This document shows positions 19,870 to 24,747 of a DNA stretch of 33,430 nt, in pieces. The stretch is from a virus: positions 1 through 33,430 of the IMG/VR virus record IMGVR_UViG_3300044641_003513; one strand, 5' to 3'. A model generated the notes under the pieces. It was not told the DNA's origin. It did no database searches and worked only from the letters and a program-made list of their open reading frames with translations. The first letter of the stretch is position 1. Every line of letters begins with the position of its first letter. The position numbers and the translations under genes are program-made.

Positions 19870-20151
19870 CTACAGCAGCCGTCGTCCACCCCTGCCGTTC
19901 CTCGCCCGATTGCTGCTCGCACGCTCCAGGACAATGCGCCCGCTCCTCGTGTGACTAGCGTCCTTCCCGTCACCCTCGCTGCCCATCCTGCGGTTAGCAG
20001 CGTTCAACTCCGCCCGGTAGTCCCTCCTCTCCTTACTCGCGTGGTAGCGCTTATTGTAGGCGTTCTTCTTTCGCCTCGCCTCGGGGTTGTTCGCAAAGTA
20101 ACGACTGCTCTCGCTGGTTCCAGTGTATTTCCCCGCTAGCTTGTTGCGCAT
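19870..20151 (-). CDS. Small basic phage protein (93 aa)
   Basis: The protein starts MRNKLAGKYTGTSESSRYFA and continues NPEARRKKNAYNKRYHAS, ERRDYRAELNAANRRMG, then DGKDASHTRSGRIVLE and NRARNGRGG. I recognise the combination of a KK-Y-K-YH-S-ERR-YR-ELN-ANR helix, a GKD-SHT-SG motif and a terminal NRARNG from widespread uncharacterised phage proteins. Its charge suggests nucleic-acid binding. I use the ATG at 20151, preceded by TTGGGG; GATAGTATTGGGGATG matches the leader of the 88-aa gene. It stands alone on the minus strand between two structured non-coding stretches. Confidence 0.7.
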   Translation of the reverse strand: MRNKLAGKYTGTSESSRYFANNPEARRKKNAYNKRYHASKERRDYRAELNAANRRMGSEGDGKDASHTRSGRIVLERASSNRARNGRGGRRLL

Positions 20152-20184
20152 CCCCAATACTATCACATCACCAATTCTTTGGGG

Positions 20185-20441
20185 CTCCGCGACGGTGTGC
20201 AGCGTCCCGCTGAAGCGGGCCGCAGAAAATGGGCGGAGACGCAGGGGGCTTGCAGCCCCCCGCGACGCCCCCCTGCCGCCGTTCGCTGCGGCTCACGCGC
20301 AATTCAAGTACGGCTCCGGGACCGGATTGGGGCCCCTCGCCCCAACCGCCCTCCGCAGTCTTTAGGGTCACCCCGTAAAGACAGCCCCCTCAAGGGGTCT
20401 GTCAATTCAATATCTCGGCTGGAGCTTCGCTCGTAGCCGAG
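20185..20441. ncRNA. Dense array of inverted repeats (structured RNA or origin)
   Basis: At least seven stems fall in 257 nt: CTCCGC/GCGGAG (20185-20238) enclosing CCCGC/GCGGG (20206-20219); GGGGGCT/AGCCCCC (20244-20260); TTGGGG/CCCCAA (20327-20345); GTCTTTA/TAAAGAC around GGG/CCC (20358-20382); GACAG-CCCC/GGGG-CTGTC (20380-20403); and CTCGGCT/AGCCGAG (20414-20441) around GAGC/GCTC. GCAGGGGG can instead pair with the CCCCCCTGC further on. No protein-like frame is present. The stretch could be the 5' leader of the 93-aa gene or a replication origin. Confidence 0.5.
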
Positions 20442-20532
20442 CAGGGGCTAGCAGGTCGGGCAGGAATCGGGCACCGTGGTAAGTGGTATCTGAGGGGACG
20501 CGGATCGCTTGTGGGTCATCCAGCCCTCCATA

Positions 20533-20638
20533 CCCGCAACACACATCCACCCCAAAGCAACTCATAGTTGTTACGCAGCGCGCAAGCGCGCCACGTAAAA
20601 CTACGAATTGCTTTAGGGCCCCGTCTGTGTGTTACGGG
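20533..20638 (-). ncRNA. 106-nt near-complete hairpin, minus-strand RNA
   Basis: From the outside the arms pair as CCCG, AACACACA, CCC, AAAGCAA, AACTA-type, TTACG and GCGCGC, around a 2-nt tip at 20584-20585. On the plus strand there are five simple mismatches, all A-C or C-A (20537/20634, 20561/20607, 20564/20604, 20576/20593, 20577/20592). On the minus strand all five become G-U pairs. Only two single-base bulges and one internal loop remain. This is the mark of a structure kept at RNA level and read leftward. It ends 7 nt before the plus-strand gene at 20646. Confidence 0.6.
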
Positions 20639-20645
20639 GGCTCGT

Positions 20646-21074
20646 ATGACCCACAAGCTCACCCAGTCCTCCACAGCTACCACAAACACCACGGCGCCCG
20701 ATTCCGAGGCGCCCGACGTCAGTATGGATTTTGATTCTATTCGTTCGCGTAACAACATTCGTGACCGCAAGAACGACGAGGCCGATAGGCACAGCGTTTC
20801 GAGCATTATGGATAGGTCGGCTTCCAACGACCGACGCGATACGCGGTCGCGGAGCGACTACGACGACGAGGCCTTTGAGGAAACGCACACGCTAGGGCAA
20901 TACATTCGCGGAAAGGGTTACATCCGCCACATCTTCGCGATCAATCATCGCGAAGACACGGCCACCGTCACCACCGTTCGTTTCAACTCCGAGGACGTCG
21001 AGGTGGAGCTGTCCATCGAAAGCGCTCGGAAGTTCTACAAGACCCTCCTCTCGTATGGTTTCCGCAAGAACTAA
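20646..21074 (+). CDS. Unknown protein with disordered N-terminus (142 aa)
   Basis: The first 75 residues are low-complexity Ser/Thr/Asp/Arg (MTHKLTQSSTATTNTTAPDS, later DRSASNDRRDTRSRSDYDDE) and probably unfolded. The rest looks like one small alpha/beta domain: GQYIRGKGYIRHIFAINHRE, then TVTTVRFNSEDVEVELSIE and ARKFYKTLLSYGF. No family is recognised. It is the first gene of the accessory operon. I take the ATG at 20646, after the hairpin, because the upstream in-frame part is not protein-like. A role as partner or substrate of the amidoligase is only a guess from position. Confidence 0.6.
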   Translation: MTHKLTQSSTATTNTTAPDSEAPDVSMDFDSIRSRNNIRDRKNDEADRHSVSSIMDRSASNDRRDTRSRSDYDDEAFEETHTLGQYIRGKGYIRHIFAINHREDTATVTTVRFNSEDVEVELSIESARKFYKTLLSYGFRKN

Positions 21075-21132
21075 CCCTCGTCCTCACCATCACCTCCTAA
21101 TGGGGTATCGCCCCCATACGACTCTTCCCCAT

Positions 21133-21700: not shown

Positions 21701-21718
21701 CCTACTATCACCCTACCT

Positions 21719-22858
21719 ATGAAAACCATCACTTGGTATTCCATCCGTCACCACCTCGGCACCATTATCCAGCACTCTGGACTTGTTTGGTCCCCTACCT
21801 CGGGCCTTCCAGCCGACGAGCACACCGGCATATGCGCCGCCAACTACATTGCAGACCTAATGGACACAAGTTCGTATCCCGTTGCATTGCGAGAGGCGAA
21901 CCAGCAAATGGTTTTCGTGCCAGATTGCCTATTTCGCAAAAACACGCCCAAGCGATTCCGGCGACTGCGCGGTCGGGTCACCAATCCAAAGACACTTTGT
22001 ATGGCACCCAACAATTGCAGTAGCATACGCAACTATCGGGTCCGACGCTTCAATGACAGCGTACCGGACCCCCTACGCAAGCCATTCACAGAGCGCGTGT
22101 ACGAATTGCTGTCGAGCATCCCGCTTGCCCCGGGCAAGCAGTTCTCGTCGCTATGGTCCCGCAACACAAGCTGCGATCTCTACAACTACCAACACGCAGT
22201 AGGCTTAGAGTTCGAATCTTACGGGTTAATCGAGCGCAAGCAACTGATCAAAGCACTTCCGATATGGACACGGGTCGCAAGTGACGGATCAATTCGCCCT
22301 CCCGGCGACGCACAGGGCCACGAGATTCGCGTCCTGCTCGACCGAGCAGTTGCGGAACCCCGTCTGTTCAACCTGTGCAAGCGCTTTGCGACGCTTGGCC
22401 TGCGCGTCAACAAGTCGTGCGGGCTGCACATACACCTCGACGCACGAAGCCTGTCATACTCAGAGGTCGTTGCCCGCGCAAAGGTGATGGACAAGTGGCT
22501 GCACGCCCTAATGGAACTGCTCCCAAGCTCGCGTCGAGACAACACCTACTGCAAGTGGGGCGTTTCCCCTCACGACCGCTACCGCGCCGTTAACGTGCTC
22601 TCGTGGACTGCGCATAAGACCATCGAAGTTCGATGCGGCTCTGCCACCCTAGACTACACAAAAGTCCTCAGTTGGCTCAGACTCGTCGAACTAATCCGTG
22701 CTGTATCTCGCGGCCCCAAGGCTGGCTCGTGTATCGCCACCCTTGAGCAGCTTCCGCTGCCCGCGCACGACCTCGCATTCTGGCGAGCCCGCCATCGAGA
22801 ACTCAATCCAGCGCAATACACCACTGCTGCTACCGACACGACCACCGACAGCGAATAA
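21719..22858 (+). CDS. Amidoligase (glutamine-synthetase-like fold, COOH-NH2 ligase type)
   Basis: The C-terminal two-thirds of this 379-aa protein carry the amidoligase set: VGLEFE (161-166), SDGSI (188-192), GHEIR (200-204), CGLHIHLD (234-241), RYRAVN (287-292) and TIEVR (301-305). In this family, acidic residues and His bind Mg-ATP, and an acyl phosphate is attacked by an amine to make an amide or peptide bond. The N-terminal 155 residues are an extra domain that I do not recognise. The gene is followed by a class II amidotransferase 16 nt later. Such pairs are known in phages, notably the phiEco32 type (established knowledge). The substrate here is unknown. Confidence 0.8.
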   Translation: MKTITWYSIRHHLGTIIQHSGLVWSPTSGLPADEHTGICAANYIADLMDTSSYPVALREANQQMVFVPDCLFRKNTPKRFRRLRGRVTNPKTLCMAPNNCSSIRNYRVRRFNDSVPDPLRKPFTERVYELLSSIPLAPGKQFSSLWSRNTSCDLYNYQHAVGLEFESYGLIERKQLIKALPIWTRVASDGSIRPPGDAQGHEIRVLLDRAVAEPRLFNLCKRFATLGLRVNKSCGLHIHLDARSLSYSEVVARAKVMDKWLHALMELLPSSRRDNTYCKWGVSPHDRYRAVNVLSWTAHKTIEVRCGSATLDYTKVLSWLRLVELIRAVSRGPKAGSCIATLEQLPLPAHDLAFWRARHRELNPAQYTTAATDTTTDSE

Positions 22859-22874
22859 TCCCACTATCACTACA

Positions 22875-23684
22875 ATGTGTAAGCTTCTCTTCCTCACGGG
22901 ACACAAGCCCTCCCAGCGTAACTCCATCATCCGCCACGCTTGGCGCTATTTCGAGCGCACTGGCGAACGCGATGGCTTCGGCGCAGCGTGGATTTCACGC
23001 TCTGGCAAGCTCGCCCACATCCGCTCATCCAACCCGCTCCTCACCAATCGCCTCACCGACTGGTCGGAAGGCTGGCACGACCAAGTGGGCTACAACGAGC
23101 CCTCCGATGGCTCCGCCCTCATCATCCACGGACGCAAGGCCACTTGTGGCAAGTCCCTCGACAACACGCATCCAATGCTAGACGTAGAGCAAGCTCTCGT
23201 CCACAACGGCATCGTTGAGTCGGACGACTACAAGAACTCGTCCACCACCTGTGACTCGGAGCTTCTCCTCCGCGCTATGCAGGACAAGGGCACCGCAGGC
23301 CTTGCCTCCATCGAAGGCTACTTCGCCTTCGCCCTTCTCGATGCCAAGGCCAAGCGCCTCACCATCGTCAAGGACGACCAAGCCAATCTAGTCTCAGCCC
23401 GCATCCCGGGCTATGGCTACGCATTCGGCACCACTAGGGAAGCCGTAGCTTGCGCCACGCCCCTCGATTCATCCCCAGTCAAGGACTTCACCGCCCTTGA
23501 GTGGTCCACCCGCAAGCCCCACCGTCCCTTGTCCATCTCCAACTTCACCAAGAAGGAGAAGGTATACATTGCGCCTCAGTCCACCAACTGGCGCAGCGCC
23601 AAGGAATACTACGGGTCCATCGAGCGCACCAACGGCAGCACCCATCACGCCGCCGCGTCGTACAACGACCTATTCAACCAGTGA
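22875..23684 (+). CDS. Class II glutamine amidotransferase
   Basis: The 269-aa protein begins MCKLLFLTG, placing Cys2 as the N-terminal nucleophile once Met is removed. It has the family motifs RDGFGAAW (32-39), IIHGRKATCG (83-92), NTHPM (97-101), VHNGIVE (109-115), CDSELLLRA (126-134) and GYFAFALLD (148-156). It should split glutamine to give ammonia. There is no fused synthase domain, so the ammonia must be used by a partner, most simply the amidoligase encoded just upstream. ACTATCAC precedes the ATG and no Shine-Dalgarno sequence is seen. The C-terminal 80 residues are less conserved. Confidence 0.88.
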   Translation: MCKLLFLTGHKPSQRNSIIRHAWRYFERTGERDGFGAAWISRSGKLAHIRSSNPLLTNRLTDWSEGWHDQVGYNEPSDGSALIIHGRKATCGKSLDNTHPMLDVEQALVHNGIVESDDYKNSSTTCDSELLLRAMQDKGTAGLASIEGYFAFALLDAKAKRLTIVKDDQANLVSARIPGYGYAFGTTREAVACATPLDSSPVKDFTALEWSTRKPHRPLSISNFTKKEKVYIAPQSTNWRSAKEYYGSIERTNGSTHHAAASYNDLFNQ

Positions 23685-23842
23685 AGCACAACCTACTCGG
23701 CGGCTTTGCCGACTTCGCCCTCGGCGCCCTAGCAGCCCTATTCACCATCTGTAGCGTTCTGCTCTACCTCATCCTCTACGGCGGGCCTGACAAGCCCACC
23801 AGACCCAAGCCCAAAAAGGGGCACGAGGACTCACAGCAATAG
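23681..23842 (+). CDS. Small single-pass membrane protein, GTG start (53 aa)
   Basis: GTG at 23681 overlaps the amidotransferase stop as GTGA. The protein reads VKHNLLGGFADFALGALAAL, then FTICSVLLYLILYGG and a charged tail DKPTRPKPKKGHEDSQQ. About 30 residues form one membrane helix with a basic cytoplasmic end. It is the last gene before the terminator at 23872. It could anchor the amidoligase system at the membrane, but that is only a positional guess. Confidence 0.6.
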   Translation: MKHNLLGGFADFALGALAALFTICSVLLYLILYGGPDKPTRPKPKKGHEDSQQ

Positions 23843-23871
23843 GTTAGCCCTCACATATCCCTCGCACACGC

Positions 23872-23901
23872 AAGCCCTAGGCTCACCCCTAGGGCTTTTT
23901 T
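23872..23901 (+). terminator. Intrinsic terminator of the accessory operon
   Basis: AAGCCCTAG and CTAGGGCTT form a perfect 9-bp stem around an 8-nt loop, and a run of six T (23896-23901) starts within the stem's 3' end. It lies 30 nt after the last stop codon of the amidoligase operon. Confidence 0.9.
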
Positions 23902-24171
23902 GTTGCCCACGAATCTAGAGCGAGCCAGAGGCTCGCAGTAATCACCTGTTCCCTCCCAAGTTGCTCGTTCAGTAGGTGGGGGGGAGGGGGCTGCACGCCC
24001 CTTCGGGGCGTCCAGACCATTGGGTCCGGCAAGTCGGTTCAAAAAAATTTACACAGTCGCCCGGTAACGGAAGGAGTTCCTGTGGGTTTCCCGGGGATTG
24101 AAAGGAGTAGGGGACGGGGGGGAGGCACCAAAAGTTACGCTGGTTTAGTACAAAGATTCCATTTATGATTT
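23902..24171. other. Non-coding gap before the packaging genes
   Basis: No gene is seen. It holds two clean hairpins: GCGAGCC/GGCTCGC (23920-23936) and ACGCCCC/GGGGCGT (23995-24011). There are also G-rich runs, an A7-TTTA stretch near 24042, and AT-rich sequence up to the first packaging gene. TATGAT at 24164-24169 is a good -10 match with no clear -35. It could hold a late promoter or the terminase recognition site (inference). Confidence 0.4.
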
Positions 24172-24747
24172 ATGGATGTGGATGTTGACAAAACTGGGCA
24201 GTATTCCCTACACAGGGGTATGAGTGAACGAGCTGCCATCAGGAAGGAAGTGGCCAAGGCCATAGTGGCGGCTGGGGAGAATGGCCGTAGCATTGAGGCG
24301 CGTCAGCCTGAGCGGGCGGCTAGGTTGTTGGAGTTGATGGCTGAGGGGAAAAGCTGGAAGAGCATTGTGCGTGACGAGGGGGTGGACTGGTACACGCTTG
24401 TGGGGTTGCGGGCTCGGCATAAGGGCTTGATAGAGAAGCGGAAGGAGATTGTGGCGCAGGATGCGATGGAGCTGATTGAGGGGGCTAGGATGCTCCAGCA
24501 GGAGAAGATGAAGATGCTGGCGGAGGACGAGGGAGCCCTTAAGCGTGTGAACATCAGGGACTTGGCTATGAGCTACGGCATCTATGCCGATAAGTTCTTT
24601 ATGGCTACGGAAGGGAACAAGGTGACGGTGGAGCACAGGAGTGGAGCTCCCAGCCTTGAGGATGCAATGAAGGCGATTGAGGAGGCCAAGGCCAAGCTGA
24701 AGGCTGGCAGCATTGAGGTGGTGGCCAAGCCAGTGGAGGAAGTTTAA
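24172..24747 (+). CDS. Putative terminase small subunit
   Basis: The 191-aa protein has an HTH-like helical block (residues 40-85: PERAARLLELMAEGKSWKSI, then VDWYTLVGLRARHKGLIE), a helical oligomer-like middle and the end block MSYGIYADKFFMATEGNKVT, followed by APSLEDAMKAIEEAKAKL. Small terminase subunits bind the packaging start site through such a domain. Its place two genes before the large subunit supports this. The start could be 24172, or 24220 (MSERAAIRKEV), which lies just after ACAGGGGT; I keep the longer form. Confidence 0.65.
   Translation: MDVDVDKTGQYSLHRGMSERAAIRKEVAKAIVAAGENGRSIEARQPERAARLLELMAEGKSWKSIVRDEGVDWYTLVGLRARHKGLIEKRKEIVAQDAMELIEGARMLQQEKMKMLAEDEGALKRVNIRDLAMSYGIYADKFFMATEGNKVTVEHRSGAPSLEDAMKAIEEAKAKLKAGSIEVVAKPVEEV

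Follow-up and report, generated by a model that had tools for sequence, protein, structure and literature searches.

6S RNA is a long, mostly double-stranded hairpin that is conserved by structure rather than by sequence, ColE1 RNA II is a structured RNA of ~550 nt that forms an overlapping opposite-strand pair with RNA I, and put sites are short hairpins. Few large structured RNAs are known from phages, and their functions are open. GOLLD and ROOL are of this kind; they form RNA-only homomultimeric cages, and GOLLD combines a conserved 3' region with a variable 5' region (PMC12286853). Here we describe a concrete candidate with sharply defined anatomy, an RNA fold that had not been catalogued before and that a group of uncultivated phages has in common. 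It lies in a 33,430-nt stretch of viral DNA (IMG/VR record IMGVR_UViG_3300044641_003513), the whole of which is called the window below. A long hairpin on the minus strand of this window probably forms the 5' domain of a larger structured RNA, which may serve as a leader.

A preliminary description had reported a 106-nt hairpin at 20533-20638. This hairpin is real: the minus-strand fold is a single, almost uninterrupted hairpin of -75.2 kcal/mol (shuffled sequences -34.6 +/- 3.5 kcal/mol, z -11.7), whereas the best fold of the plus strand reaches only -48.0 kcal/mol. It is, however, larger than described, and the 106 nt are the inner part of a hairpin of ~250 nt at 20463-20705 (minus strand), with weaker outer pairing extending to 20455-20717. 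The 5' arm comprises 20705-20587, the loop 20586-20583 and the 3' arm 20582-20463. Over 20463-20705 the minus-strand fold contains 104 pairs, including 11 G.U pairs, and has an energy of -175.4 kcal/mol (z -18.8) versus -135.4 kcal/mol (z -13.4) for the plus strand, so that the comparison of both strands favours minus. The inverted-repeat score of 131.5 is the highest in the window, the runner-up scoring about half of it (68). It had also been stated that five A-C or C-A mismatches of the inner hairpin turn into G-U pairs on the minus strand. The direction of this observation holds, since the plus-strand fold of 20533-20638 has no wobble pair; the minus-strand fold has seven G.U pairs, and the number five was therefore an undercount.

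Relatives were obtained from IMG/VR by searching with the neighbouring protein p142 and the DnaB-like helicase. The long hairpin is present, whole or in part, in eight of these contigs. It is closely similar in L007, L010, L023 and L006, follows the same plan with largely different sequence in L030, L014 and L034, and is represented by its 3' half only in L021, at the contig end. A further contig, L035, has a shorter hairpin together with the 3' domain described below, and L018 has kept the 3' domain alone, without the long hairpin. The common plan starts with an 8-bp outer helix and a bulge of 4 nt, either CCTC or CCTT. Next comes a long helix that spans the initial codons of the divergent gene, whose start codon is paired in the middle of the arm, and inside lies an inner stem of ~20-33 pairs. 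L006 and the window share 88.6% DNA identity over 20222-20730, while their p142 proteins are only 53% identical; hence the conserved block tracks the RNA element and not the gene.

Across these strongly diverged sequences the hairpin is conserved by compensation. In the alignment of L030, L014 and L034, 21 pairs have changed on both sides and are still paired, compared with 7.5 +/- 2.2 in shuffled controls. None of 500 shuffles reached 21, and with the partners slid against each other at most five such pairs were found. The 5' arm strings GTCGGTTGTGAAG, GGAGGACGTGAAG and GGCACTGGTGAAG each face their own complement with a single mismatch, in L034, and many of the two-sided changes sit in codons. 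For the whole element, RNAalifold yields 32 two-sided pairs in the L030 group. In the window's own group TA->CG, GC->UA and UG->GU pair changes occur in L006 or L007 relative to the window. Taken alone this group is weak, with 25 of 500 shuffles scoring as high and only four distinct, closely related sequences. Drift of the arms without compensating changes had been named beforehand as the outcome that would speak against an RNA; the 21 two-sided pairs thus favour the RNA claim.

The same data bear on the idea that the hairpin arose by chance, by chimeric assembly or as an inverted duplication that has no function and is decaying. Inverted-duplication chimeras do occur in metagenomes, and L021 ends inside the hairpin. 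The arms in the window are, however, only ~72% alike, the hairpin recurs in eight further contigs where it is kept by compensatory change, and neither the z-score of the long fold nor the absence of equally covarying shuffles agrees with chance. We regard the probability of such an origin as negligible.

Since the folding program allows G.U but not A.C, the arms were re-aligned with both mismatches scored equally, i.e. without strand preference. On the minus strand, the ratio of G.U to A.C was then 14:2 in the window, 12:2 in L006, 8:0 in L030, 4:1 in L014 and 10:2 in L034. The background, taken from hundreds of hairpin-like alignments elsewhere in the contigs, was 3448:3338 (~1:1). Pooling of the three independent families results in 32:4 (Fisher p 1.6e-6 versus the background hairpins). 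The bias is weaker after correction for the G/T-rich local composition (P 0.035 for the window alone and P 2e-4 for the three families). RNAalifold is also weaker on the plus strand in all three alignments. The compensation and the recurrence of the wobble bias in independent families support, at the level of sequence, the earlier proposal of a functional minus-strand RNA.

This strand preference argues against a 5' leader of p142 on the plus strand, in which the hairpin would hide the start codon. The p142 start does lie within the arm, and a ACTATCAC motif at 20159, pointing right, may be promoter-like. Yet the plus-strand fold is 40 kcal/mol worse, the wobble positions become A.C mismatches, and the weaker RNAalifold result recurs in every alignment, which makes a plus-strand leader very improbable.

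The structured region continues downstream of the long hairpin on the minus strand. At 20272-20454 (minus strand) it consists of short GC-rich hairpins, for example GACAGACCCC-TTGA-GGGGGCTGTC and TTGGGGC-GAGGG-GCCCCAA. Five such hairpins follow the long one in the window and ~8-11 in relatives, the array being longer in L014, L030, L021 and L034. By itself the array has little strand bias, L034 excepted. A conserved 3' domain follows at 20181-20271 (minus strand), with outer GGGG/CCCC and a hairpin GCG..CGC. It contains a covarying helix, CUCCGC (20238-20233)/GCGGAG (20190-20185), around conserved CAUU..ACACC. The helix reads CUCCGC/GCGGAG in the window and L030, ACGGCA/UGCCGU in L006, CUCGGC/GCCGAG in L034 and CUCUGC/GCAGAG in L035; it is accompanied by conserved CAUU at its 5' side and ACACC at its 3' side except in L035. 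These 3'-domain pairings were read by eye, and single-sequence folds reproduce them in some members only. The element measures ~540 nt in the window and ~700 nt in relatives.

Two further candidates in this part were discarded. An ATTTT after the 3' hairpin is unlikely to mark an intrinsic terminator, since the covarying helix runs on past it. A helix CCCCAA/UUGGGG before p93, which might hide the ribosome-binding site, is feasible in most of the window group but was rejected as a general feature, because L034 has a counterpart without p93. Another group of contigs (L025, L026, L028 and L036) has no long hairpin and carries a different multi-hairpin non-coding region before p93, which is conserved among these four, e.g. 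GAGAATGGC-GAAA-GCCATTCTC.

Inverted repeats may also act as DNA, forming a cruciform or a single-strand hairpin in replication, priming or recombination, with template switching keeping the arms alike. Inverted repeats can indeed be homogenised at the DNA level, and G.T is tolerated in single-stranded DNA. Several of the very short GC hairpins, moreover, contain GCGAAGC, a very stable DNA mini-hairpin. Homogenisation predicts, however, neither the 32:4 wobble bias on one strand nor compensation in the helices of the array and the 3' domain. Furthermore, the cumulative GC skew has its minimum, with a sharp change of sign, near 23.9 kb, ~3.4 kb from the hairpin, and so places the origin there. 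We therefore consider a DNA element rather improbable, and the suggestion that the hairpin belongs to an origin RNA at 20.5 kb found no support. The skew minimum adjoins a rightward terminator (23872-23897) and the terminase genes, so that 23000-24200 is a candidate origin or transcription divide.

On the other side of the hairpin lies the divergent gene p142 (20646-21074, plus strand). Its codons 1-24, like those of its counterparts p184 and p207, form the outer arm, i.e. the 5' arm as the minus-strand complement. Opposite, the 3' arm repeats the start region of this gene in inverted and diverged form. Despite changes in the gene sequence, every full-length member has kept the overlap with the start region. 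A 3-nt deletion in the coding arm of L034 preserves the reading frame, and 4 nt are missing from the non-coding arm; consequently, the overlapping codons are translated and constrained as well. Structure, strand preference, covariation and this overlap are results of sequence comparison. Twenty-four protein codons thus appear to obey an RNA hairpin of the opposite strand, a coding sequence shaped by antisense structure.

This arrangement suggests an antisense regulator, in which the minus-strand RNA would mainly control p142: the 5' arm would pair with the p142 start (codons 1-24 and the sequence upstream), and the copy in the 3' arm would be a built-in competitor limiting the antisense effect. 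By its position the 5' arm is complementary to the p142 start, the overlap persists in the full-length members, and hairpin and gene version have been exchanged together between p93 and p118, both of which are conserved. In L035, however, a shorter hairpin stands beside a gene not recognised as related to p142, and L018 has retained the 3' domain but no long hairpin. Moreover, antisense pairing needs no 3' arm, so that selection for the hairpin itself would be left unexplained. Control of p142 as the main role is consequently unlikely, but among the functional alternatives it is the foremost.

The C-terminal ~65 residues of p142 are predicted with good confidence as a beta-beta-beta-beta-alpha domain, and the N-terminus is disordered. 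In the predicted model this domain is weakly WGR-like (VIA-align Z 8.3 with 2ra8, 7.1 with the PARP2 WGR domain); it has no Foldseek match at E<=0.001 and no Pfam match. Proteins of the p142 type are absent from phage records and have no Pfam, PHROGs or NCBIfam family. That p142 might bind the RNA is speculation. In the early plus-strand operon, two adjacent genes encode an amidoligase-like protein (21719-22858) and a glutamine amidotransferase-like protein (22875-23684). The motif ACTATCA occurs eight times on the plus strand of the window and never on the minus strand. Copies at 21704 and 22863 (plus strand) lie just upstream of the start codons of plus-strand early genes, as does a degenerate copy near 21084, a further site is at 20159 (plus strand), and counterparts exist in L014, L023 and L030; the motif may be the promoter of near-leaderless mRNAs.

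For the preferred reading, a structured leader RNA on the minus strand, we infer the promoter, the transcript ends and every functional step from the sequence. Transcription would start at an AT-rich, promoter-like patch at 20718-20760 (minus strand), which abuts the hairpin base and lies inside p142 at codons ~25-40, i.e. within its first ~40 codons. From such a start the RNA would begin at or near the hairpin base. Within the patch, CATACT stands 3 nt ahead of the outermost pairs. In five of the six contigs checked (the window, L006, L030, L014 and L034), the AT content of the patch ranks within the top 0.03-1% of all 30-nt windows of the contig; these fractions are somewhat optimistic, each being that of the best among 21 window positions. 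The patch is absent from L035, and no sigma-70 consensus promoter was found in it, both of which count against this reading.

The RNA would then fold into the ~250-nt hairpin, the chain of short hairpins and the junction-like 3' domain, and in the window it would continue into p93 (19870-20151, minus strand; phrog_6437, 'unknown function'), the first gene of the leftward replication operon, and the rest of that operon. The hairpin would close the 5' end of the RNA and protect or process the early transcript. The inner stem of full-length versions contains an uninterrupted helix of ~20-24 bp, a size that is cut by RNase III, and would suit such processing. The 5' arm, which is the antisense of the p142 start, would be locked by pairing with the 3' arm, where this start is copied. 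Since the element lies between divergent operons and is directed towards p93 and the replication genes, an operon leader is the simplest reading. The preliminary description had likewise considered the head of a long leader for this 93-residue gene. In the window this agrees with structure that stops ~30 nt before p93. Directly after the elements of L034 and L035, however, p93 is missing. Thus the element is not solely a p93 leader and is possibly also a free-standing RNA. A specific role in leading or processing the transcript, taken alone, is possible rather than probable. Only tentatively do we propose a new class of large phage RNA, in which antisense strand and built-in decoy would be united in a single molecule. 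On the same reading, with a copy of the neighbouring gene's start opposite its own antisense, hairpin and gene might be swapped as a cognate module, a suggestion that is equally tentative.

Database searches place the element outside described families. No Rfam family reached the gathering score in the window, L030, L014, L006, L018 or L021, and the sole family to do so in L034 was a tRNA, located ~1.3 kb downstream of the element there. A permissive Rfam scan of 20100-20760 found nothing credible and no GOLLD, and the Rfam covariance models of ROOL and 6S gave no match. The DNA has no similarity to phage and plasmid records. GTDB genomes contain neither a relative of the helicase nor the 3'-hairpin pattern, and hence no host was assigned. 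A covariance model of the 3' hairpin, run over 73 sources, returned only contigs already known. Pattern matches in L046, L049 and L051 look like chance, and the strong folds of L092, L104 and L060 arise from GC-rich or repetitive sequence and lack the architecture of the element.

In comparison with 6S RNA, the element is likewise a long, mostly double-stranded hairpin with structure conserved over sequence, but its predicted fold has no central open bubble and Rfam gives no match. With ColE1 RNA II/RNA I and lambda OOP-type RNAs (PMC5869508) it would share overlapping opposite-strand transcripts; here, in contrast, the overlap is with the beginning of a coding region, a copy of the target is part of the RNA itself, and there is no origin signal at the site. 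HK022 putRNA (PMC9378689) and other early-leader antitermination RNAs resemble it as structured RNAs heading a phage early transcript. By analogy with put-type leaders it is conceivable that the element acts on the transcribing polymerase, but unlike put sites it is a region of 540-700 nt with a 250-nt hairpin. The element comes closest to the large ornate phage RNAs, GOLLD and ROOL (PMC12286853), although the testable features of membership are absent: there is no Rfam match, and the window has no tRNA and thus lacks the tRNA-island setting frequent for GOLLD. The 5' domain, a 250-nt hairpin over the codons of a divergent gene, also differs. Like GOLLD and ROOL it is large and highly structured, and like GOLLD it joins a conserved 3' region to a variable 5' region.
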